A stretch of 64,000 nt of DNA from Rubrivivax sp. (GTDB lineage: Bacteria > Pseudomonadota > Gammaproteobacteria > Burkholderiales > Burkholderiaceae_C). Shown piece after piece: positions 23,139 through 36,038 of the stretch. The position numbers were made by a program, and so were the translations under genes. Location of the stretch: assembly GCA_016789955.1 (NCBI GenBank), contig JAEUPB010000074.1, positions 1 through 64,000 of the forward strand. The letters are read 5' to 3'. Under the pieces are notes generated by a model that saw only the letters and a list, made by a program, of their open reading frames with translations, was not told the DNA's origin and searched no databases. Position 1 is the first letter of the stretch; each line of letters starts with the position of its first letter.

Positions 23139-26100
23139 TCAGCCGAACGGGATGAACCCGACGCCGATCTCCGAGATGCCCGCGAAGTCGATGTTCTCGA
23201 GGTTCAGCTCGTTCTCGGCGGCCAGGATGCCCAGGTCGGCCTGCGACATCTGCCCCGAGTCGAGCAGGCCGACGAAGTAGCGGAAGTCCGGTCCAGGCGG
23301 CAGGAAGCCGACGAGGTTCGAGTACAGCAGGTTCACGACCAGCGCGTTGGTCGGGTTGGGCGTGTCCAGTCGCGCCTCCAGCGCGAGGTCCATCAGATCG
23401 GCATAGCTCATGCCCGCGTCGAGCAGCGCGAGGCCGATGCCGACGAACTCCGGGTCCTGCGAGTACTCGGCGCCGAACACCGCGCCGAGGATCTTCACGG
23501 TGGTGCCGGCGTTGCCTTCGACGTCGATGGCCCAGTCCCAGTCGGGGAAGTGCAGCCGCTCCACGCCTTCGAGGTTGTCGATGCCATCGCTGCCGACGGT
23601 GTCGTTGACGACCCAGCCGTTCTCGGTGGGTGCCAGTTCGTAGCGACCCGCGGCGCCGAGGTAGAACGCGGTGTCGAGTCCCGTGCCGCCGCTCAGCACG
23701 TCGTCGCCGCCACCACCGGTGAGGCGGTCGTCACCGGCTCCGCTGGAGAGCCGGTCGGCGCCAGCGGTGCCGGTCAGCGTGTCGGCACCGATGCTGCCGG
23801 TGACGAGGTTCTGCCGCAATGCCGAGAGGGTGTACGGGCCGGTCCCGTCGTCGAAGTCGCCGGCCGCCAGGTAGTAGGTGCCGTTGGCCAGCGGCGTGTA
23901 GTTGATGCGCGAGTTCAGGTTCGCGCCGCCGTCGTCGTCGTAGGCCACGGCGACGCCGTCGGGGCCGAGCAGCACGAGGTAGGGGTCGTCGAGGCCGGAG
24001 AGCCCCTGCCACTTCAGGTCGAACGCGTAGGGCTGGCCGGCCGTGAGCGTCACCGCGAAGTAGTCGACGTCGCCCGGCACGCCGATCGTGCCGCTGCTCG
24101 CGAAGCCGCCCGCCGTCACGCGCCCGCTGCTGGCGGTGGACGCGAGGTAGTCGTCGGCGGGCACGCTGGCCGAGACGCTGTAGATGCCGGTGGCGTCGGA
24201 ATAGTCGAAGGCCGCCAGGTAGTAGGTGCCGCTGACGGTGGCCGTGTAGTGCATCAGCGAGTTGAAGTTGCCGCCGCTGTCATCGTCGAATCCGAGCAGG
24301 TCCACATCGGGTTGCGGGCCGTAGAGCAACAGGTACGGGTCGACGAAACTGACCGGGATGTCCGGCGCGTTCATCTCGAAGCGGTAGGTGACGCCGGCCG
24401 TCAGGTTGACCCGGAACAGGTCGCCGTCGTTGGGCACCTCGATGCGCGCGTTCACCGCCGGGCCGCCGGGCACGACGAGGCCGCTGGTCGATACGGTCAT
24501 CGGGTAGTCGTCGCCGGTCGCGCTGGCGGCGGTGGTGAAGTTCCACGCCGCGAGGCCGCTGATCCCGGCATACGAGTTGCCCGCCGCATCGCGGAAGGCG
24601 TTGCCGTCGACGTTGATCACGTAGGCCGTGCCGGGCAGCAGGTCGCCGTCGGGGTTGATCGTCACGGTCGAGCCGCTGATGCTGACCTGGCGCGCATCGC
24701 CGGCCGCGATCTCGCGCAGCAGCGAGCCGGTGGAGCCGAGGATGCGGATCGAGCCGCTCCCGGCCGAGACCGTCTCGCTGAAGGTCATCACCAGGTTCGC
24801 CCCGGTGGCCACGCCGCCCGCATCGTCGTCCGGCGTGCGCGACACCAGGGTCGGCGCGATGATGTCCTGCACCGATGCCGTGAGCTGGTAGGCCCCGGTG
24901 CCGCTGCCGTAGTCGGTGGCGACGAGGTAGTGGGTGCCGCTGACGGAGGCCGTGAAGACGATCCTAGAGTTGCCGTTGCCGCCGCCGTCGTCGTCGCTGG
25001 TGACCAGTGCTTCGCTCGGGTCGTACAGGCCCAGCAGCGGGTCGGTCAGCCCGCCGGCGGCGCGCTGCAGCGTGAATGCGTAGGTGGTGCCCGCGACCAG
25101 CGTGACCTTGAAGGCGTCGTTGTCGTCGACGGTCTCGATGACGCCCGAGGCCGGCGCCCCGCCGACGATGACCACGCCCGAGGTGGCCGACGTGCTGGGG
25201 TAGTCGTCGCCGCTGCGCGCCGCGGTGACGAAGTTCCACGCCGTGGTCGACGACAGGCCGGCGTAGGCATTGCCCGTCAGGTCGCGGAACGCACCGGGGT
25301 CGACCGTGACGGCGTAGCGCGTGCTCGCGGCCAGGTCGGCCGTCGGGTTGATCGTCACCGTGGTGCCGCTGATCGACACCTGCGCCGTGTCGGTGGCCGC
25401 GATCGAACGCACCAGCGTGCCGGCGGCGTCGCGGATCAGGATGTTGCCGGTGCCGCGCTGCACGCCCTCGTCGAACACCATCACCAGGTTGGCCGACGGC
25501 GCCACGCTGCCTGCCTCGTCGGCCGGCGTGATGCTCACGAGCGATGGCGCGGCGGTGTCGCCGGACACCACGGTGAAGTTCCAGGCGGTGCTGTTGTTCA
25601 GGCCCGCCCAGGCATTGCCGGCGAGGTCGGTGAACGCACCCGCCGAGACGGTGACGTAGTAGCCGCCGGCGGCCAGCACCGAAGGCGGGTCGATCACCAC
25701 GCGCGTGCCGTCGATGCGCACCGCCCCGGTGTCGGTGGCGGAGAAGGTCTGCACCGGCACGCCGCCGGGCGTGTAGACGCCGATCGTGCCGTTGCCGATC
25801 TTCATCGCCTCGTTGAACGTGAGCACGAAGTTCGCGCTGCCGGCCACGTTGGTGGCGTTGTCCGTCGGCGACAGGCTCGCCAGCAGCGGCACCGTGGTGT
25901 CGGGGCCGCCGAGTTCGGCCAGCGTGCGCGTGCCGTCGGTGAACTGGAAGCGCTCGACAGCGGTGGCGCGGGTCGTGCTGCCGCCGCCGGCGAGCGTGAC
26001 CGTGGCTCCCGAGACGGTGATCGAGTAGGTCGCAAAGCTGAACGTGAACAGCGCCGTGTCGGTACCGGTGCCGCCGTCGAGCACGTTGTTGCCACCGCCG

Positions 26101-27098
26101 GGCACCAGCAGGTCGTCGCCGCCGAGACCGCCGAGCTCGTCGTCGCCGGCACCGCCGTCGAGCCGGTTGGCGGCGTCGTTGCCCATCAGCACGTCGGCCC
26201 CGCTGCCACCCACGGCGTTCTCGATCACCGTGTTCAGCGCGATCGCCACGTTGTTGGTCAGGGTGTTGACCGACGAGTAGGCGCCGGCGCGCAGGTCGAC
26301 GCGGCTCGAGGCGCCGTAGCCGCTCAGGTCCAGCGTGTCGATGCCGCCGCTGTCGAAGATCGTCAGCACCGGGTGCGCATTGCTCGCGAAGTCGTAGATC
26401 CGGGCGGTGCTGCCGCCGGCGGTGCTGTTGAACCCGTAGACCGTGTCGCCGGCCCGCGTGGTGGTCGACACGCCGTAGATGCTCTGGATCGCCGCGATGT
26501 CGTTGACCATCGGCGTCTGCGGGTCCCAGGTCGTGCCGCTGGGGTCGGTCCAGTTCGCCTGGGCGATGTCGGGCGAGTAGTTCGCCGCCGCGTTGCGCGG
26601 GCCGAAGTACGACATCACCGACAGCACGATGCTGTCCTGGTACGACGACGGCGTCCAGTTGCCGTTGCCGTTGTAGTCGCCCATGTGGTTGAGGCCCAGC
26701 GCGTGGCCGAACTCGTGCACGAAGGTCAGGAACCCGTAGGCGCCGAGCTGCGGCTGCACGAGGTCGGACTCGCCGGAGTTGAACCAGGCGCTGCCGATGT
26801 TCGGGAAGTAGGCGTGCGCGAACCCGATGCTGGTGTTCGTGTAGGCCATCTCGATGTTCGAGTTGCCCGGCGCCACCTGCTGGAAGGTCTGGGGGATCAG
26901 GTCGTCCCAGGTCTGCAGCGCCAGCACCATCAGCGCCTGCTGCTGGGTGTTGACCGGGCGGAAGCCCTGCGCCTCGCCTTGCGAGTACATCCCCGACGCG
27001 GTGTTCGGGAACGCGTAGGTGATGGTGCCGCCGGTCCAGCGCTCGCCTCCGTTCAGCTGACGGATGACCTGGTCGAGGGTCCACTGCGTGATCGCCAT
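23139..27098 (-). CDS. Large M10-type zinc metalloprotease with Ig-like, PPC and calcium-repeat domains
   Basis: A 1319-residue secreted-type protein. The N-terminal protease domain has the metzincin site HEFGHALGLNH (H128, E129, H132, H138) and Met-turn VMSYF (M162), as in serralysins. Glycine/aspartate-rich calcium-binding nonapeptide repeats follow near 300-345. Next come three Ig-like repeats that each begin with the pattern SLSPTDNATNV or a variant, three PPC-type beta domains, a second calcium-repeat block near 1150, and a C-terminal region resembling DUF4214. There is no signal peptide, consistent with type I secretion, but no ABC/MFP/TolC exporter genes are in the window. Ordinary codon usage; no sign of truncation. 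Confidence 0.88.
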   Translation of the reverse strand: MAITQWTLDQVIRQLNGGERWTGGTITYAFPNTASGMYSQGEAQGFRPVNTQQQALMVLALQTWDDLIPQTFQQVAPGNSNIEMAYTNTSIGFAHAYFPNIGSAWFNSGESDLVQPQLGAYGFLTFVHEFGHALGLNHMGDYNGNGNWTPSSYQDSIVLSVMSYFGPRNAAANYSPDIAQANWTDPSGTTWDPQTPMVNDIAAIQSIYGVSTTTRAGDTVYGFNSTAGGSTARIYDFASNAHPVLTIFDSGGIDTLDLSGYGASSRVDLRAGAYSSVNTLTNNVAIALNTVIENAVGGSGADVLMGNDAANRLDGGAGDDELGGLGGDDLLVPGGGNNVLDGGTGTDTALFTFSFATYSITVSGATVTLAGGGSTTRATAVERFQFTDGTRTLAELGGPDTTVPLLASLSPTDNATNVAGSANFVLTFNEAMKIGNGTIGVYTPGGVPVQTFSATDTGAVRIDGTRVVIDPPSVLAAGGYYVTVSAGAFTDLAGNAWAGLNNSTAWNFTVVSGDTAAPSLVSITPADEAGSVAPSANLVMVFDEGVQRGTGNILIRDAAGTLVRSIAATDTAQVSISGTTVTINPTADLAASTRYAVTVDPGAFRDLTGNAYAGLSSTTAWNFVTAARSGDDYPSTSATSGVVIVGGAPASGVIETVDDNDAFKVTLVAGTTYAFTLQRAAGGLTDPLLGLYDPSEALVTSDDDGGGNGNSRIVFTASVSGTHYLVATDYGSGTGAYQLTASVQDIIAPTLVSRTPDDDAGGVATGANLVMTFSETVSAGSGSIRILGSTGSLLREIAAGDARQVSISGSTVTINPDGDLLPGTAYVINVDGNAFRDAAGNSYAGISGLAAWNFTTAASATGDDYPMTVSTSGLVVPGGPAVNARIEVPNDGDLFRVNLTAGVTYRFEMNAPDIPVSFVDPYLLLYGPQPDVDLLGFDDDSGGNFNSLMHYTATVSGTYYLAAFDYSDATGIYSVSASVPADDYLASTASSGRVTAGGFASSGTIGVPGDVDYFAVTLTAGQPYAFDLKWQGLSGLDDPYLVLLGPDGVAVAYDDDGGANLNSRINYTPLANGTYYLAAGDFDDGTGPYTLSALRQNLVTGSIGADTLTGTAGADRLSSGAGDDRLTGGGGDDVLSGGTGLDTAFYLGAAGRYELAPTENGWVVNDTVGSDGIDNLEGVERLHFPDWDWAIDVEGNAGTTVKILGAVFGAEYSQDPEFVGIGLALLDAGMSYADLMDLALEARLDTPNPTNALVVNLLYSNLVGFLPPGPDFRYFVGLLDSGQMSQADLGILAAENELNLENIDFAGISEIGVGFIPFG

Positions 27099-27248
27099 CC
27101 TCGAGCTCCTCCTGGTGTTCAGACCCGATTGGACACGTGTCGCGCCCCGATGGCATCGCCGCGAAGAGCCATTTGAGGAGTTTTTGGGGCGTGGCCCGGG
27201 GCGAGGGGTGCCTCCGCGCGGAGGTGCGGTGGGCGGGTCGCCCGCGCG

Positions 27249-28133
27249 TCAGATCGCATCGAGCGGGATCTTCAGGTAGCGCCGGCCGTTCGACTCCGGC
27301 TCGGGCAACTGGCCTCCGCGCATGTTCACCTGCACCGACGGCAGCATCAGCGTGGGCATCGCCAGCGTGGCGTCGCGGGCGCGGCGCATCACGACGAACT
27401 CCTCTTCGCTGATGCCGTTGCGCACGTGGATGTTGTGCTCGCGTTCCTCGGCCACCGTGCTCATGTAGCGCAGCTCCCGGCCGCCGGGCTGGTAATCGTG
27501 GCACATGCACAGCCGGGTCTGCGGCGGCAGGCTCAGCACCCGGTTGATCGAGCGGAACAGCGTGCGTGCGTCGCCGCCGGGGAAGTCGCAGCGCGCCGTG
27601 CCGCCGTCGGGCATGAACAGCGTGTCGCCCACGAACGCGGCCGACTCGTTCGCATCGCTCACGACGTACGTCATGCAGGCCGGCGTGTGGCCCGGCGTGT
27701 GCAGCGCGCGGGCCTCGAGCCCGCCGATGCGGAAGGTCTCGCCATCGGCGAACAGGTGGTCGAACTGCCGGCCGTCGCGGGCGAAGTCGCTGCCGGCATT
27801 CAGCAGACGGCCGAACACCTGCTGCACCTCCGTGACGCGGCCACCGATGCCGATGCGGCCACCGAGCTCCCGCTTCAGGTGCTGCGCTGCGGACAGGTGG
27901 TCGGCGTGCACGTGGGTCTCCAGGATCCACTGCACACTGGCCCCGAGCTCGCGTACGCGGGAAGCCAGCCGGTCAGCGCTGGCGCGCGACGTGCGTCCCG
28001 AGCGGGGGTCGTAGTCGAGCACGCTGTCGACGATGGCGCATAGCCGGGTGCCGGTGTCGAGCACGAGGTAGCTGACGGTCCAGGTGGCGGGATCGAAGTG
28101 GCCTTCGACGTGGAGGGTGCCGGGGCTGGGCAT
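27249..28133 (-). CDS. Metallo-beta-lactamase-fold persulfide dioxygenase
   Basis: A 294-residue protein of the ETHE1/persulfide dioxygenase branch, which oxidises glutathione persulfide to sulfite with a mononuclear iron. The metal motif is THVHADH (H74, H76, D78, H79), with further ligands in HTPGHTPACMTY and VGDTLFMPDGGTARCDF. Length and the C-terminal segment ending YLKIPLDAI fit the bacterial group often found beside sulfide:quinone reductase or rhodanese genes; neither is here. The gene diverges from a sigma-54 activator with FisR-like cysteines and has a near-consensus sigma-54 promoter at 28190-28205. A hydrolase of the same fold is the main alternative. Confidence 0.8.
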   Translation of the reverse strand: MPSPGTLHVEGHFDPATWTVSYLVLDTGTRLCAIVDSVLDYDPRSGRTSRASADRLASRVRELGASVQWILETHVHADHLSAAQHLKRELGGRIGIGGRVTEVQQVFGRLLNAGSDFARDGRQFDHLFADGETFRIGGLEARALHTPGHTPACMTYVVSDANESAAFVGDTLFMPDGGTARCDFPGGDARTLFRSINRVLSLPPQTRLCMCHDYQPGGRELRYMSTVAEEREHNIHVRNGISEEEFVVMRRARDATLAMPTLMLPSVQVNMRGGQLPEPESNGRRYLKIPLDAI

Positions 28134-28189
28134 GACGGGGGTCCTGGTCGGCAGCAGCCGCCGGTGGCGGGCCGCCGCAGCAACGCCTT

Positions 28190-28205
28190 ATCAAGACGCG
28201 TGCCA
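28190..28205 (-). promoter_or_regulatory. Sigma-54 promoter of the persulfide dioxygenase gene
   Basis: Read on the minus strand the site is TGGCACG-CGTC-TTGAT. The -24 element is a perfect match and the -12 element differs from TTGCT at one base; the 4-base spacing is exact. Its predicted start site would leave a leader of about 45 bases before the ATG at 28133. Confidence 0.7.
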
Positions 28206-28260
28206 TGCCGGGGGCGGCGGCTTCACGGAGGACCGCAGCCGGACACCAGCGGCCGCGCAT

Positions 28261-28317
28261 CGCTGCCACGACGGTGGCTGGCAGCGGCGCTGCCTCAAGA
28301 TGGCAGCGTTGGCAGCG
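28261..28317. promoter_or_regulatory. Cluster of five GGCAGCG sites (likely activator-binding region)
   Basis: The 7-mer GGCAGCG or its complement occurs five times in 57 bases: 28261-28267 (inverted), 28280-28286, 28288-28294 (inverted), 28302-28308 and 28311-28317. They form inverted pairs with 12- and 7-base spacers. The cluster lies roughly 80-140 bases upstream of the expected transcription start of the dioxygenase gene, where enhancer-binding proteins of sigma-54 normally bind. Confidence 0.6.
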
Positions 28318-28351
28318 CGGCGCGCCACAATCGCCGCAACCGCTGCACGCC

Positions 28352-29722
28352 ATGCCGCCCCGCAAGCCCCCGCTCCGCCCCGCCGAAGCCGCCGCACGTC
28401 GACCGGCGCCACAGCTGCAGTCGCTGGTCTCGTTCCTCGAGCACGAGGCCCAGCCGATGATCGTGCTGGACCCGGACTACCGCATCCTGGCCGCCAACAC
28501 CGCGTACCGGCGCCAGTTCGGCACCGTGGACAAGCCCTACCTCGGGCACGCGTGCTACCGCATCTCGCACCACTACGACGTGCCCTGTGACCAGGCCGGC
28601 GAGCATTGCCCGATGCGCAAGGCCTACGAGCTGAAGGGCCCCGACCGCGTGCTGCACATCCACCACACGCCACGCGGCCCCGAGCACGTGGACGTGGAAC
28701 TGCGGCCCATCCTCGACGAGCACCGCGAGGTGGTGGCCTACGTCGAGCGGCTGGCCACCGTGCGCAGCGCGTCGGCCCGACCGAGTGCCGAGGGCCTGGT
28801 CGGGCGTGCGCCGGCCTTCAACGCCGCGCTCTCGGCGGTGCAGCGCGTGGCGCCCTCGACGCTCCCGGTGCTGCTGCTCGGCGAGTCGGGCACCGGCAAG
28901 GAGCTGTTCGCCCGCGCCGTGCACGAGGCCAGCCCGCGCGCGCGCGGCCCGTTCGTCGTGGTCGACTGCTCGGGGCTGACCGAGACCCTGTTCGAGAGCG
29001 AGCTGTTCGGCTACGAGAAGGGCGCCTTCACCGGCGCCGGCGGCCGCAAGCCCGGCCTGGTCGAGACCGCGCACGGCGGCACGCTGTTCCTCGACGAGAT
29101 GGGCGACGTGCCGCTGTCGATGCAGGTGAAACTGCTGCGGCTGATCGAGACCGGCACCTTCCGGCGCGTGGGGGCCATCGAGTCGCAGCAGGCCGAATTC
29201 CGGCTCGTCGCGGCCACGCACAAGCCGTTGCTGGAGATGGTGGCCGACGGCCGCTTCCGACAGGATCTCTACTACCGCATCAGCGCCTTCCCGATCCCGC
29301 TGCCGCCGCTGCGCGAGCGCGCCGACGACATCCCGATGCTGGTGGATTCCTTCCTGCAGCGAGGCACGCCCGGCAAGCACCGCGTCTCGGTCGATGCCGA
29401 GGCGATGGCGCGCCTGCAAGCGCACGACTGGCCCGGCAACATCCGCGAGCTGCGCAACGTGCTGGAGCGGGCGCGCCTGTTCGCCGACGACGGCATCGTG
29501 CGTGCGGCGCACCTGCCCGACGGTCTGGGCCGCGGCAAGCCCGGCGCGCTGACGGCGCCCACTCCGTCTGCCGCGACGCCGCTGCCCGCCCCGGAGATCG
29601 GCGACGCCGAACTGCGCAGGCTCGCGCTGACCGCACGCTGCACGCGCAAGGAACTGGCGCGCCGCGCCGGCCTCAGCGAACGTACCCTGTATCGGCGATT
29701 GAAGGCGCTGGATCTCGCCTGA
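28352..29722 (+). CDS. Sigma-54-dependent activator, FisR-like
   Basis: A 456-residue enhancer-binding protein. Residues of about 25-130 form a PAS-like sensor containing exactly three cysteines, C68, C79 and C86. The AAA+ domain has Walker A GESGTGKE, the sigma-54 contact loop GAFTGA and Walker B LFLDEMGD; a Fis-type helix-turn-helix ends the protein ([19 protein letters not shown]). The cysteine spacing (11 and 7) equals, as I recall it, that of C53, C64 and C71 in Cupriavidus FisR, which senses sulfane sulfur and activates a persulfide dioxygenase gene. The divergent gene here is such a dioxygenase. The ATG at 28352 follows a CACAAT hexamer (28326-28331); an upstream ATG at 28205 would overlap the regulatory sites. 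Confidence 0.88.
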
Positions 29723-29753
29723 TCGTCGCGACCTGGGGGCGAGGCCGCGCCCG

Positions 29754-30767
29754 TCAGGCCGGCGTGCCGGCCGCGGGCGCGGTCGCCGCGGCGATCGGCA
29801 CGGACTCGGGCACCAGCAGGCTGCCGTCGCGCAGCCCACGCAGCGTGGCCAGCGCCAGTGCCGCGACGAGCAGCGACGTGGCCGCCAGCAGCCCGATGCC
29901 CGCCAGGCTCGCGGTGCCCGTGGGCGCGAGCCGCAGCGTCAAGGCCGTGAAGGCCGCCATCGGGAAGCTCATGCCCCAGTGCACCACGCCGAAGGGAAGC
30001 TCGGCGATGCGACGCAGCAGTGTCGCCATCCACAGCAGCGAGAACAGCGCGGCACCCCACAGGCCCCAGACCACGAGCGGCGTCACCCCGAAGCGCAACG
30101 CCGACAAGCCCACCGCCGCCGGCGGCGCCACGAAGATGAAGTTGGCGGGCAGCAGCCGCTCGGGCCACGGGCCCTGGCTGGCCACCCGCACCAGCAGCAG
30201 CACCAGCACCAGCGGCCAGAACAGCACGCCGAGACCGAACTGCGCCGCGGCCCACTCGGGCCGGCCGAGCGGGACGCCGGCCAGCGGCACCAGCACGTTG
30301 CCGACGATGGGGATGAACAGGGCCGGGGTCAGGCTGGCCCACGGCAGCCCGCCGCCGGGCCCGGCGCGCCACCACCGCGACATCACCCACACCGTGACCG
30401 ACAGTTGCGCCAGCGACGCTGCCCACCACAGGGCCTCGAGCAGCGGCCCGCCCAGGCCCGCGGCCACCGCCGACGTCACGAGCAACAGCAGCGCGATGGG
30501 CAGCGCCGCCACGAACACGTGGCGCACGGGGTGCTTCAGGTCCTCGCCCCACGCCCCGGGGTGGCGAACGCGCCGCCACACGCCCGCCACGACGAGCACG
30601 GCGAACACCAGCGCGGCCAGCGCACCGATCACCACCGCCGCGGCGCCGGCCCCGTCACCGAGCAGCGGCACGGCCGCGTGCCAGGCCAGCGATAGGCCGG
30701 CGAGGCCCATCACGATCGCGTACCAGCCGGGCGCGAGGTGCTTCAGCGGGGCCTGCTGCGAGCCCAT
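29754..30767 (-). CDS. SLAC1/TDT-family anion permease
   Basis: About 337 residues with ten predicted transmembrane helices, of the tellurite-resistance/dicarboxylate (TDT) and SLAC1 family, whose members include TehA, plant anion channels and the yeast sulfite exporter Ssu1. It starts at ATG 30767 (a GTG at 30800 would overlap the small ORF upstream). It converges on the FisR-like regulator gene. Because the next module makes sulfite from persulfides, sulfite export is an attractive role, but this rests on position alone. Confidence 0.75.
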   Translation of the reverse strand: MGSQQAPLKHLAPGWYAIVMGLAGLSLAWHAAVPLLGDGAGAAAVVIGALAALVFAVLVVAGVWRRVRHPGAWGEDLKHPVRHVFVAALPIALLLLVTSAVAAGLGGPLLEALWWAASLAQLSVTVWVMSRWWRAGPGGGLPWASLTPALFIPIVGNVLVPLAGVPLGRPEWAAAQFGLGVLFWPLVLVLLLVRVASQGPWPERLLPANFIFVAPPAAVGLSALRFGVTPLVVWGLWGAALFSLLWMATLLRRIAELPFGVVHWGMSFPMAAFTALTLRLAPTGTASLAGIGLLAATSLLVAALALATLRGLRDGSLLVPESVPIAAATAPAAGTPA

Positions 30768-30781
30768 CCCTGCGCCCCGGC

Positions 30782-30826
30782 CTACTTCACCCGGACGCAC
30801 GGCACGCCGTGGGCGGTGTCGGTCAT
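30782..30826 (-). CDS. Possible 14-codon leader peptide or ccoH remnant
   Basis: ATG at 30826 is preceded, at eight bases, by a strong AGGAG and opens a frame of 14 codons ending in TAG, 15 bases before the permease ATG. It follows ccoG by 32 bases. FixH/CcoH genes normally follow ccoG, and the short N-terminus may be a decayed remnant; alternatively it is a coupling leader for the permease. Confidence 0.3.
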   Translation of the reverse strand: MTDTAHGVPCVRVK

Positions 30827-30858
30827 CGTCGGTGCTCCTGTCGGTGGGTGGCTGCTGA

Positions 30859-32328
30859 TCATCGCGGCAGCACGAAGGTCGACTTCTCGGTGAGCGTGCG
30901 CGCCGGGTCGGCCCCCAGCGCCTCGCGCTCGATCACGAAACGGATCTCGTGCGCGCCGGGCCGGGTGCCGGCCGCGGTCTGCGGCGGGACGCGCAAGGTC
31001 ACCGACACCCATCGCGCCTCGGTGGGAGCGACCGCCACGGGGCGCGGGTCGAGCAGGCGCAGGCCCGGCAGCCCGTCGGCCGTGATGCGGTAGCGCTGTG
31101 CGAGTTCGGTGGCGTTCATGATCTGCAGGCGGTAGACATTCTCGACCTCTCCGTCCTCGACCTGCCGTGCCAGCGTGGCACGGTCGCGCACCACGTCCAC
31201 CTTGAACGGCGAGCGCAGCGCGATGCTCGTGGCCAGTGCCGAGACGATCAGCAGCAGCACCGTCGAGTAGACCAGCACCCGCGGCCGGAACACGCGACGC
31301 AGCCGCTGCGCGCGCGTCAGGTGCTGCGCCAGACCGTTCTGCGTGTCGTAGCGCACCAGCCCCGGCGCGTAGTTCATCTTCGTCATCACGTCGTCGCAGA
31401 CGTCGATGCAGGCGGCGCAGCCGATGCACTCGTACTGCAGGCCCTTGCGGATGTCGATGCCGGTCGGGCACACCTGCACGCACAGCCCGCAGTCGATGCA
31501 GTCGCCCAGGCCCAGCTTGGCCGGATCGGCCTTCTTCGACCGCGAGCCGCGCGGTTCGCCGCGGGCCTGGTCGTAGGTGATGATCAGCGTGTCCTTGTCG
31601 AGCATCGCGCTCTGGAACCGCGCGTACGGGCACATGTACTTGCACACCTGCTCGCGCATGAAGCCGGCGTTGCCGTAGGTGGCCAGGCTGTAGAACAGCA
31701 CCCAGAAGGTCTCCCAGGGCCCGAGGCCGAGACCGGCCACGCCTTGCGCCAGCGCGCGGATCGGCGTGAAGTAGCCGACGAACGAGAAGCCCGTCCACAG
31801 CGCCATCGCGACCCACGCGATCTGCTTGCCGCCGGTGCGCCACAGCCGCCGGGCGCTCCAGCCACCGGCGTCGAGCTTCATGCGCGCGGCGCGGTCGCCT
31901 TCGAAACGGCGCTCGACCCACATGAAGATCTCGGTGTAGACGGTCTGCGGGCAGGCGTAGCCGCACCACAGGCGGCCCGCGACGGCGGTGAACAGGAACA
32001 GCGCGTACGCGGCCGTGAGCAGCAGCGCCGTGAGGTAGATCAGGTCCTGCGGGTAGAGCACCAGGCCGAACAGGTAGAAGCGGCGTGCGCCCAGGTCGAA
32101 CAACACCGCCTGCCGCTGGTTCCACGTCAGCCACGGCGTCGCGTAGAAGACGATCTGCGTGATCCACACCAGCGCCCAGCGCCAGTTGACGAAGCGGCCC
32201 GTGACGGCACGCGGATAGATCTTCTTCTGCGCCTGGTACAGCGAGACGATCTGCACCGCCGCGTCGTCGCTGCCGGCGGTCGCCGCTGCCGCCGACAGCG
32301 GTGGGGCTCCTGTGCGCAAGGTGTCCAT
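30859..32328 (-). CDS. ccoG: Cytochrome cbb3 oxidase accessory protein CcoG
   Basis: A 489-residue membrane iron-sulfur protein needed for copper delivery to the cbb3-type oxidase. It has several N-terminal transmembrane helices with the motif WCGYACPQTVYTEIFMWVE, a second Cys pair in VCKYMCPYARFQ, and two ferredoxin motifs (CIDCGLCVQVCP and CIGCAACIDVC). A C-terminal Ig-like domain follows the last transmembrane helix. ATG at 32328 is preferred to 32397 because it follows a CGCAAT hexamer and gives a normal N-terminus. The usual neighbours ccoNOP, ccoH, ccoI and ccoS are not present. Confidence 0.93.
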   Translation of the reverse strand: MDTLRTGAPPLSAAAATAGSDDAAVQIVSLYQAQKKIYPRAVTGRFVNWRWALVWITQIVFYATPWLTWNQRQAVLFDLGARRFYLFGLVLYPQDLIYLTALLLTAAYALFLFTAVAGRLWCGYACPQTVYTEIFMWVERRFEGDRAARMKLDAGGWSARRLWRTGGKQIAWVAMALWTGFSFVGYFTPIRALAQGVAGLGLGPWETFWVLFYSLATYGNAGFMREQVCKYMCPYARFQSAMLDKDTLIITYDQARGEPRGSRSKKADPAKLGLGDCIDCGLCVQVCPTGIDIRKGLQYECIGCAACIDVCDDVMTKMNYAPGLVRYDTQNGLAQHLTRAQRLRRVFRPRVLVYSTVLLLIVSALATSIALRSPFKVDVVRDRATLARQVEDGEVENVYRLQIMNATELAQRYRITADGLPGLRLLDPRPVAVAPTEARWVSVTLRVPPQTAAGTRPGAHEIRFVIEREALGADPARTLTEKSTFVLPR

Positions 32329-32407
32329 GTCCCGACCATTGCGAATCCCATGCCAGCCTGGCGCCGACGGATCTGCCCGACGGCACCCGGTGTCCATCCC
32401 TCGTTCG

Positions 32408-32420
32408 GGGCACGGTGCCC
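32408..32420. promoter_or_regulatory. 13-bp palindrome upstream of ccoG
   Basis: GGGCAC-G-GTGCCC lies 80 bases before the ccoG ATG, in the divergence-free gap between ccoG and the sigma-factor gene upstream. It may be an operator, or simply a GC-rich hairpin that ends the sigma-factor operon. Confidence 0.3.
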
Positions 32421-32529
32421 ACCGGCGCGGAAACTGCCGCGGGCTGCCAGGTCACCGCCAAGTCGCACCACGTGGCAGTGAAATTGCCGGCGGTGGCAGT
32501 GCTACGCGCGAGCCAGCCGGGCGCGCGGG

Positions 32530-33831
<1,302 letters not shown>

Positions 33832-33838
33832 CGAGATC

Positions 33839-34189
33839 TCACAGATAGCAGGGCGCCGTCTGCCGCACCTCGACGGTGGCCCACTGCGCCGCGGGGCAGC
33901 GCGCGGCCCACTCGAGCGCTTCCTCGCGGCCCACGTGGTCGGCCAGCAGGAAGATGCCGCCGACCATCTCGCGCGCCTCGGCATACGGGCCGTCGACGAT
34001 GCGGCGCTCGCCGCCGCGCACCTGCAGCCTGCTGCCATGCGTGGCCAACGACTCCACCGCCTTCAGCGCGCCGGCCTGCTGCAGTTCGCCGGCGTAGGCC
34101 AGCATCTGCGCATAGGCCTCGCGCCCTCCGGCCTCGCCGCGCTCCTCGCGCTGGCCCAGCGGCTCGACGATCAGCAGCATGTATCCCAT
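33839..34189 (-). CDS. YCII/DGPF-family protein
   Basis: A 116-residue protein of the YCII family with the N-terminal strand YMLLIVEP and the motif VDGPYAEAREMVGGIFLL, a version of the DGPF signature. The biochemical function of these proteins is unknown; they are partners and often targets of ECF42-type sigma factors. It precedes the sigma-factor gene by seven bases and follows the DUF1624 gene by 24 bases, so it belongs to a five-gene minus-strand run. Confidence 0.85.
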   Translation of the reverse strand: MGYMLLIVEPLGQREERGEAGGREAYAQMLAYAGELQQAGALKAVESLATHGSRLQVRGGERRIVDGPYAEAREMVGGIFLLADHVGREEALEWAARCPAAQWATVEVRQTAPCYL

Positions 34190-34213: not shown

Positions 34214-34942
34214 TCAGCGGACCGCCTTGTAGAGCATCAGCGCGCCGATGAACAACGGCTGGTGCAGCATGTAGAAGCTCAGGCTCCAGCGACCCAGCAG
34301 CGCCAGCGGCGAAGCTGCCCGCGGGACCGGCCCGGCCATCGCGCCGCCACCGCGCGCCAGCAGCATCTGCCCTGCGGCCAGCCCCCAGAGCATCACGCCC
34401 AGCCACGGCAGCAACGGCACGTAGTCCTCGGTGACGGGCTTGCGGGTGGCCAGCCCCAGCCACTGCAGCGCCGGCGCATCGAACATCGGGTGCGCCCCCA
34501 GCACGGGCAGCGCCAGCGCCCCCGCGCCCAGCAGCCACAGGCCCGAGCGCAACGGCGCGGCGACGCGGGCGATCACCAGCATCACCGCGATGCCATGCAG
34601 CACGCCGAAGAAGATCCAGCTGCGCGGGAACATCCACGCCGAGCCGGCGCTCACGAGCACCGCGCAGCCGGCGATCTGCGCCCAGCGCTTCCAGAAGCGC
34701 GGCCAGGTCTGGCCCTGGTGCAGCGCGATGGCCTGCGCGAGGCCGGCGCAGAAGAGGAACAGGCTGACGATGGCGGTGCGCTGGCCGGTCCAGAACGGGT
34801 CGTGCGTGAAGGCCTGCCGCGGCACCCAGAAGCCGAGGTGGTTCAGGTCGAAGCACAAGTGGAAGCCGGCCATCCACGCAATGGCCACGCCGCGCAGCGC
34901 GTCGACGCGATCGAGGCGGGGGCGCGGGCCGGGCGTCGTCAC
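34214..34942 (-). CDS. DUF1624 / heparan-alpha-glucosaminide N-acetyltransferase-like membrane protein
   Basis: A 242-residue protein with about seven transmembrane helices, beginning with the family motif RVDALRGVAIAWMAGFHLCFDLNHLG, quoted here only in its first part, and containing a conserved His and Asn in that segment. Such proteins transfer acetyl groups across membranes in eukaryotes; bacterial members are uncharacterised. The start is GTG at 34942, overlapping the stop of the RES toxin gene (GTGA), so it is coupled to the toxin-antitoxin operon. Confidence 0.75.
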   Translation of the reverse strand: MTTPGPRPRLDRVDALRGVAIAWMAGFHLCFDLNHLGFWVPRQAFTHDPFWTGQRTAIVSLFLFCAGLAQAIALHQGQTWPRFWKRWAQIAGCAVLVSAGSAWMFPRSWIFFGVLHGIAVMLVIARVAAPLRSGLWLLGAGALALPVLGAHPMFDAPALQWLGLATRKPVTEDYVPLLPWLGVMLWGLAAGQMLLARGGGAMAGPVPRAASPLALLGRWSLSFYMLHQPLFIGALMLYKAVR

Positions 34943-35616
34943 TCGGTCTTCTCGTAGACGTCGGTGAAGCGCTCGCCGTCCCACGCGTAGAGCAGCACGG
35001 CGGCATGCAGGCAGCGGCTGGCGCCGCGCGGGCTGAACAGGCCCACGCACAGGCCGTCGGGGCGGCGCACGCTGCGGTAGACGACGCCAGCCGAGCCCTC
35101 GGCATGCAGCGCGTGGCCCATCTGCCGAGACGGGCCGTAGTCGTCGGGGTCGTGCAGCGGTGCGTAGGCCTCGGGCCGCAGGTCGTGCAGCCGGGCGTCG
35201 ATGGCCACGTGATAGAGGCGCATCGGCAGGTGCATCGGCCGCTCGCGCGTGGCGAGCAGGAAGCGGCCGTGGTGGTACTTCGTCTCGGCCACCGCGGTGG
35301 CGCGCTCGCGCGCGGCGTAGAAGACACCGTGCCGGCCATCGGCAAAGCGGCTGCCGCTGGTGTTGACGTGCGTGAAGGCGGCCATGATCGGCCCGCTGCC
35401 CGGCCCGTACACGCGCTGGTCCTTCGGCACGCGCTCGATGGTGCCGAGCTCGTCGCGCACGCGCTCGTTGGTCAGCGCCTCCAGCGCGTACAGCGCGTCG
35501 AAGTCGGCGGCATCGGCGACGCGGTCGAACAGCGTGATGGTCGGGTGGCGCGTGGGCACGATGCGGCAGGCCTGCGCCCAGCGCACGCGCCGCACCTCGG
35601 GCGGGGGCGACGTCAA
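34939..35616 (-). CDS. RES-domain toxin
   Basis: A RES-family toxin of up to 225 residues. These toxins bind and degrade NAD+ and arrest growth. The RES core is visible: RVYGPGSGPIMAAFTH, the Gly/Arg-rich GSRFADGRHGVFYAA, ATAVAETKYH with the conserved Glu, and a C-terminal RPDGLCVGLFSPRG. TTG at 35616 overlaps the antitoxin stop (TTGA), matching the coupling seen in Xre-RES pairs; GTG at 35595 or 35586 are alternative starts. It lies directly downstream of its cognate antitoxin gene. Confidence 0.85.
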   Translation of the reverse strand: MTSPPPEVRRVRWAQACRIVPTRHPTITLFDRVADAADFDALYALEALTNERVRDELGTIERVPKDQRVYGPGSGPIMAAFTHVNTSGSRFADGRHGVFYAARERATAVAETKYHHGRFLLATRERPMHLPMRLYHVAIDARLHDLRPEAYAPLHDPDDYGPSRQMGHALHAEGSAGVVYRSVRRPDGLCVGLFSPRGASRCLHAAVLLYAWDGERFTDVYEKTE

Positions 35617-36038
35617 GACCAGCCGCCGCCGCGCACGCCGTCGAGGTAGCGCCGCACCAGGTTCAGGTCGCTGACGTTGCCCGCCAGCATGCGCTGCAGC
35701 GCACTGCCGCCGCCGAAGGGCGCGGCGGTGTTGGGCTGGCGCACCCAGGCATCGGCCGCGGCCGGGTCGGGCAGCAGGATCTGCAGGCTCTTGTAGATGC
35801 CCAGCAGGTTGGACAGCCGCTCCAGCGTGTCGCGCGGCAGGCTGGCCTTCTCGGGGTGCTTGCGCCACGAGAAGTAGGTCGAGCGCGGCGGCTGGCCCAG
35901 CAGCGTGAGCTGCTCGTCGACGCTCAAGCCCCAGGCCTCGGCGATGCGGCCCCAGGCGCGCAGGCCGGCGGCCGACATCTCGGCCAGCGACGGCTCGGCG
36001 CGCTCGGCCATCAGCGGCAATGCACCCATGCGACTCAT
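35613..36038 (-). CDS. Xre/ParS-type antitoxin (MbcA family)
   Basis: A 141-residue antitoxin. The N-terminal half is a helix-turn-helix of the Xre type (GLSVDEQLTLLGQPPRSTYFSW, of which the first 20 residues are quoted in part); the C-terminal half is the toxin-binding domain, with the characteristic PNTAAPFGGGSALQRML and NVSDLNLVRRYLDG segments that block the NAD site of RES toxins. It probably represses its own promoter. The start at 36038 lies about 15 bases after the predicted transcription start; ATG 36029 is a nearby alternative. Confidence 0.88.
   Translation of the reverse strand: MSRMGALPLMAERAEPSLAEMSAAGLRAWGRIAEAWGLSVDEQLTLLGQPPRSTYFSWRKHPEKASLPRDTLERLSNLLGIYKSLQILLPDPAAADAWVRQPNTAAPFGGGSALQRMLAGNVSDLNLVRRYLDGVRGGGWS

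Follow-up and report, generated by a model that had tools for sequence, protein, structure and literature searches.

The closest described regulators are the FisR proteins of Cupriavidus and Acinetobacter. The Cupriavidus protein links Cys53 to Cys64 in a tetrasulfide, according to the accessible part of PMC9495516, and FisR gains ATPase activity, according to the accessible part of PMC12170894. Acinetobacter baumannii FisR drives PDO1, sulfide:quinone reductase (SQR) and TauE, yet works without these cysteines, as given in the accessible part of PMC7315123.

A locus in Rubrivivax sp. is probably a FisR-type regulon with two arms, one for persulfide oxidation and one for respiration and export. 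It lies in a stretch of 64,000 nucleotides that we analysed as a whole (the window). What the sequence itself shows is the two genes, the three cysteines, the arrays of boxes and the promoter-like sites, together with their recurrence in relatives. A preliminary description of the DNA had called the unit complete; the FisR-type unit is real, and its limits were drawn too narrowly, with a putative second promoter of the same architecture standing before ccoG and a SLAC1/TDT gene. The features are as follows.

27249–28133, minus strand: pdo-type gene (P0001), metallo-beta-lactamase (MBL) fold, 294 aa, persulfide dioxygenase (PDO)-type; motifs THVHADH 73–79, H149, D170, R181 and Y214
28190–28205, minus strand: sigma-54 site of pdo, TGGCACGCGTCTTGAT, with TTGAT at −12; predicted from sequence only
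28263–28315, no strand assigned: proposed FisR box array of pdo, TGGCAG/CTGCCA at 28263–28268, 28279–28284, 28301–28306 and 28310–28315
28352–29722, plus strand: FisR-type activator (P0002), 456 aa, divergent from pdo; PAS_4 30–138, AAA+ 149–315, lid 321–397, C-terminal HTH-like region 422–453
28553–28555, 28586–28588 and 28607–28609, plus strand: codons of P0002 Cys68, Cys79 and Cys86
29754–30800, minus strand: SLAC1/TDT-family anion channel or transporter (PF03595)
30859–32397, minus strand: CcoG/FixG-like 4Fe-4S protein (Fer4_18, FixG_C), given as the longest ORF
32340–32355, minus strand: second sigma-54-like site, TGGCATGGGATTCGCA, before ccoG-TDT; called from the letters alone
32444–32499, no strand assigned: second proposed FisR box array, boxes at 32444–32449, 32473–32478 and 32494–32499

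The gene divergent from fisR is of persulfide dioxygenase type, as the preliminary description had proposed, and its turnover of persulfide is predicted from the MBL fold and from iron ligands that align with those of ETHE1. Pfam finds the fold (PF00753), and the closest solved chains are 4efz, 4ysk and 9g8t (E 6e-137 to 6e-124), which the PDB labels only as metallo-beta-lactamase-type proteins; we take 4ysk to be a Pseudomonas persulfide dioxygenase. The next match is ETHE1 (4chl, 8e-23), named as a persulfide dioxygenase. Its chain aligns with P0001 across the active-site motifs, with matching iron ligands, which in ETHE1 are two histidines and one aspartate. The Blh model NF040641 matches residues 8–294 with 392.9 bits against a cut-off of 625 and leaves its first 142 positions unmatched. 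On that sub-threshold score we ruled out a Blh bifunctional enzyme, which joins a DUF442 half to the dioxygenase.

Other genes of the window lie to either side of the locus. An RTX/serralysin-type protein of 1319 aa with Big_5 and PPC domains (23139–27098, minus strand) follows pdo 150 bp downstream on the same strand. A scan of 26900–32600 found no sigma-70 promoter and no terminator, and none between pdo and the RTX gene. Beyond ccoG, also on the minus strand, a sigma-70-type protein with DUF6596 adjoins a YCII-domain protein (32530–34189), and a RES-domain protein adjoins an Xre/MbcA/ParS-type antitoxin, likely as a toxin-antitoxin pair (34939–36038).

Predicted membership of P0002 in the FisR group is well supported by its domains, by how the cysteines are spaced, by the PDO-type gene that diverges from it and by promoter features common to relatives, in line with the preliminary description. 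Pfam assigns PAS_4, Sigma54_activat and AAA_lid_14, and HTH_24 scores 21.7, just under its cut-off of 21.9. The three cysteines are spaced by 11 residues (Cys68 to Cys79) and 7 residues (Cys79 to Cys86), a likeness to characterised FisR judged by spacing alone and unaligned. FisR presumably has a third cysteine, at a spacing of seven, to which Cys86 corresponds. This numbering counts from the ATG at 28352, most likely the true start, from which the claim of a divergent sigma-54 activator with these three residues was confirmed. The start of a longer ORF, an ATG at 28205, touches the sigma-54 promoter and is unlikely. Among 48 loci tested, all 34 with a sensor-domain match carry cysteine at each of the three positions; the match is absent in the other 14, seven of which are other activators of the window's own genome. 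With P0002 itself counted, the assembly of that genome encodes 14 proteins that match the activator strongly.

The pdo promoter combines a sigma-54 site with an array of short boxes. A minus-strand site with a perfect −24 box had been placed at 28190–28205, and it is there, with one mismatch to TGGCAYG-N4-TTGCW and a −12 element, TTGAT, that departs from consensus. A search of the 5.26-Mb assembly for the stricter form TGGCAYGNNTCTTGAW gives a single occurrence. Sites with at most two mismatches are not enriched in the window (12 observed against 18 expected), so this one counts only in context. Across 12 aligned intergenic regions, from the window and 11 relatives, the pdo-side site carries TTGA at −12 in nine, eight of them relatives, and TTGC in three (L029, L030 and L031); CTGCCA recurs upstream of it in direct and inverted copies.

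The conserved box differs from the 7-mer first proposed. All five reported copies of GGCAGCG are present (28261, 28280, 28288, 28302 and 28311), among 80 in a window whose GC content is 71.6%. The box that relatives conserve is CTGCCA/TGGCAG, a candidate operator with four exact copies at pdo and a degenerate fifth near 28288. The related 7-mer TGGCAGC is not enriched in the window (17 against 22 expected). Of the 120 hexamers that can be written with the letters of CTGCCA, 23, with CTGCCA itself among them, cluster there three to 80 bp.

Because single elements are not enriched and same-letter hexamers cluster, we took only the combination of boxes and sigma-54 site as evidence. This composite consists of three or more boxes in a span of 80 bp, followed 30–160 bp downstream by a sigma-54 site with at least 10 of 12 consensus letters, thresholds that were fixed after the pdo promoter had been seen. 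In the window it stands at two promoters, those of pdo and ccoG, and at no others. It appeared in 0 of 200 dinucleotide shuffles and in none of 127 other loci, which partly overlap and add up to 631,473 bp; a large share of them had been picked for box pairs or sigma-54 sites. Pairs of CTGCCA boxes spaced by about 30 bp or less, whatever their orientation, mark 46 loci of the own assembly (overlaps counted apart), and a correctly placed sigma-54 site accompanies only two, the pdo and ccoG promoters. Genome-wide, CTGCCA pairs are not commoner than their reversed control (24 versus 32, 22 versus 38, 22 versus 34).

Pairing of the regulator with a PDO-type gene recurs among close relatives. Among 61 genomes, the window's own included, 15 have a regulator match at E ≤1e-100; a scan of public genomes took in 80 of 587 regulator loci, and 40 regulator loci were compared. 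Thirteen of these have a regulator at least 63% identical to P0002, and a PDO-type match (E ≤1e-8) adjoins it in 12; PDO identity is 67–80% in 11 of them and 36% in one (G014), and a Curvibacter locus (L032) has none. At E 1e-8 the remaining 27 loci gave no PDO-type match, the same-genus ones covering at most 1.5 kb of flank. One sister-clade locus (L018) has another MBL-like ORF at its edge, seen by eye. In a tree of 40 chosen rows the window falls in a clade of 15 with support of 100/100, and a PDO-type gene is present in 14 of these 15 loci, Curvibacter being the exception. Neighbouring genes in relatives include SQR, DUF442-SQR together with TauE (both inside the pdo operon of G018), and a YgaP-like membrane protein.

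The PDO-like gene of G014 occupies the pdo position beside this FisR (7337–8437 of L143, minus strand) without THVHADH, and has TPGQ for TPGH and GQT for GDT. It is likely a pseudoenzyme kept in frame behind a FisR-type promoter.

The composite recurs with this regulator clade. All 13 clade loci scored (L014–L016 and L029–L038) have at least one, and in 11 it aims at the pdo-type gene or operon. A YgaP-like gene comes first behind the pdo-side composite in L014. In L031 the scored element aims at cydA and none is scored at pdo; in Curvibacter it aims at ccoG. Sister-clade loci carry the composite in 6 of 21 cases. Near three-cysteine regulators in that clade, sigma-54 sites with CTGCCA boxes aim at Rieske genes (L018, L019, L020, L022) or at cydA (L027, L028), with two boxes in L018 and at least three in the other five. 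In L021 (G056) the sister regulator is divergent from a SLAC1/TDT gene, and its scored composite lies on the regulator's far side.

The second composite in the window stands before ccoG and the SLAC1/TDT gene, which adjoin fisR on the opposite strand, on the side away from pdo, and which, 58 bp apart, appear to form one operon. Both gene products score well above profile cut-offs (Fer4_18 139 versus 27 bits and FixG_C 109.2 versus 25.6 for CcoG; PF03595 148.4 versus 27.9 for the channel). CcoG is an iron-sulfur protein of heme-copper oxidase assembly, and the SLAC1/TDT protein probably exports sulfite or a related anion, the substrate being a guess. The ccoG site reads TCGCA at −12. The next ccoG ATG (32328–32326) falls close to where transcription is predicted to begin, which would mean either a leaderless transcript or a start codon further in; the gene probably begins at 32328 or a lower position. 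In G014 the ATG likewise falls close to the predicted start, and in Curvibacter an ATG sits even closer behind the site.

Among 30 ccoG loci, the composite precedes ccoG in all three that adjoin a clade FisR (G000, G014 and G024), while the remaining 27 lack it. The fisR gene of G024 is broken across contigs; a C-terminal FisR fragment, sharing 72% identity with that of the window, is on the contig with ccoG. In G018 this FisR is present, and its ccoG, about 35 kb distant, has a single box. Curvibacter L032 has fisR and ccoG (by Pfam), five boxes and a 10/12 site, and no pdo in the locus. Other genes can occupy the ccoG position: cydA (Cyt_bd_oxida_I) behind six boxes in L030 and L031, and TauE behind five boxes in C. 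metallidurans CH34, which has another composite at pdo. The cydA of G024 is possibly also a target, at a distance of 381 bp from the site.

The sulfur source of the unit may lie elsewhere in the genome. The preliminary description had read the lack of SQR as pointing to cysteine or organosulfur. SQR, a usual though not an obligatory member of FisR target operons, is absent from the unit, as it said; the source need not be these, since the assembly has a flavocytochrome-c sulfide dehydrogenase (FCSD). Its flavoprotein gene (PF21706, PF09242) lies with cytochrome c and Sulf_transp (YeeE/YedE-type) genes on contig C41 (L110), and FCSD, as an alternative to SQR, might supply sulfane sulfur by oxidising sulfide, besides cysteine or organosulfur. 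We searched the assembly with the SQR of L036, whose best solved match is a human-type sulfide:quinone oxidoreductase (1.9e-92). No close SQR turned up in the assembly, which is 79.6% complete, the best match, at 25%, being this FCSD flavoprotein; an SQR may lie in the missing fifth. A further PDO-like gene, fused to rhodanese, is on contig C48. A search for rpoN (Sigma54_DBD) in the same 79.6% complete assembly found none, although the gene is present in 33 of the 36 further genomes of the genus that were searched.

Three other readings of the locus bear on the two-armed regulon. FisR might control pdo only, with the ccoG box cluster and sigma-54-like site a product of chance or a relic. The poor −12 of that site, its awkward distance to the ATG, and G018, where this FisR coexists with a distant ccoG and a single box, speak for such a limit, and the G018 case together with the after-the-fact thresholds slightly weakens the second arm. 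We nevertheless consider it unlikely, given that the composite is missing from all 200 shuffles and all 127 other loci and recurs before ccoG (G014, G024, Curvibacter L032), before cydA (L030, L031) and before tauE (CH34). It is very improbable that P0001 is another MBL hydrolase, glyoxalase II-like and no persulfide dioxygenase: the fold is common to both and the GloB model TIGR03413 does match, at 72.6 bits under a cut-off of 200.8, but P0001 is much nearer the Blh dioxygenase model (392.9 bits over residues 8–294), aligns to ETHE1 across the active-site motifs, and has SQR and TauE beside its counterparts in relatives.

The nature of the signal invites a different objection. The cysteines could sense redox state or bind metal instead of persulfide, making P0002 a general respiratory-stress regulator with PDO as one target of several. 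That idea fits the sister regulators, which share the three cysteines and lie close to genes for Rieske, cydA, ccoG or TDT proteins, as it does the composite in 6 of 21 sister-clade loci. Weighing against it are the PDO-type gene in 14 of 15 loci of the window's clade, often with SQR or TauE, and the Cys53-Cys64 tetrasulfide of Cupriavidus FisR (accessible part of PMC9495516), and we regard a redox or metal sensor as improbable.

The two-armed FisR-type regulon would work as follows. FisR, a sigma-54 activator, would bind the CTGCCA box arrays; its PAS-like domain has Cys86 and, at the spacing of the Cupriavidus tetrasulfide pair, Cys68 and Cys79. Persulfide or polysulfide, the presumed signal, would cause FisR to hydrolyse ATP and open sigma-54 RNA polymerase, the presumed holoenzyme, at two promoters. 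From the pdo promoter would come persulfide dioxygenase, converting its likely substrate glutathione persulfide to sulfite. The ccoG promoter would yield CcoG and the SLAC1/TDT channel, the latter probably exporting sulfite or a related anion as its putative substrate. CcoG would serve to maintain a terminal oxidase while its copper or heme is being bound by sulfide.

A wider reading is tentative. Three-cysteine PAS activators might form a general sulfide-stress system of beta- and some gammaproteobacteria, in which a single CTGCCA-array operator would link the oxidation of persulfide and the export of sulfite to a remodelled respiratory chain, by way of cytochrome bd, CcoG (for the assembly of heme-copper oxidases) and, in a sister clade, a Rieske protein.

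CTGCCA arrays upstream of a sigma-54 site are a candidate FisR operator readable from sequence, and would offer a way to predict FisR regulons. Sulfide poisons terminal oxidases, and the ccoG arm would tie reactive-sulfur sensing to their upkeep. CydAB rises under sulfide in A. baumannii (accessible part of PMC7315123), and the box array before cydAB in other bacteria makes this regulator a candidate for CydAB-type sulfide responses. The FisR switch was already known; as far as the openly accessible literature searched goes, the CTGCCA box appears to be new, and so does the ccoG arm. There we found no paper treating FisR with ccoG or with SLAC1, and a search on TehA/SLAC1/Ssu1-type sulfite exporters found none.

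Known systems each share part of this architecture. FisR of Cupriavidus pinatubonensis JMP134 (Li et al. 2017) is, like P0002, a sigma-54 activator of sulfide-oxidation genes (accessible parts of PMC9495516 and PMC12170894). Its cysteines 53 and 64 lie 11 apart, as do residues 68 and 79 of P0002, a comparison by spacing and not by alignment (accessible part of PMC9495516). Unlike that unit, as far as its accessible description goes, the window has no SQR beside PDO and has a second box-and-promoter element before ccoG-TDT. A. baumannii FisR is likewise a divergent sigma-54 activator, beside a PDO1, SQR and TauE operon; unlike P0002 it lacks the sensor cysteines, and the accessible part of PMC7315123 describes no ccoG arm. 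The Blh bifunctional sulfurtransferase/dioxygenase (NF040641) has a dioxygenase half like P0001 residues 8–294, but the match stays at 392.9 bits, below 625, and the first 142 model positions are absent from P0001. C. metallidurans CH34 (L182, regulator 72.6% identical, in a record without a gene table for this stretch) has PDO and SQR on one side, and its fisR, like that of the window, is flanked left and right by box arrays with sigma-54 sites; its second arm is TauE, whereas that of the window is CcoG with SLAC1/TDT.
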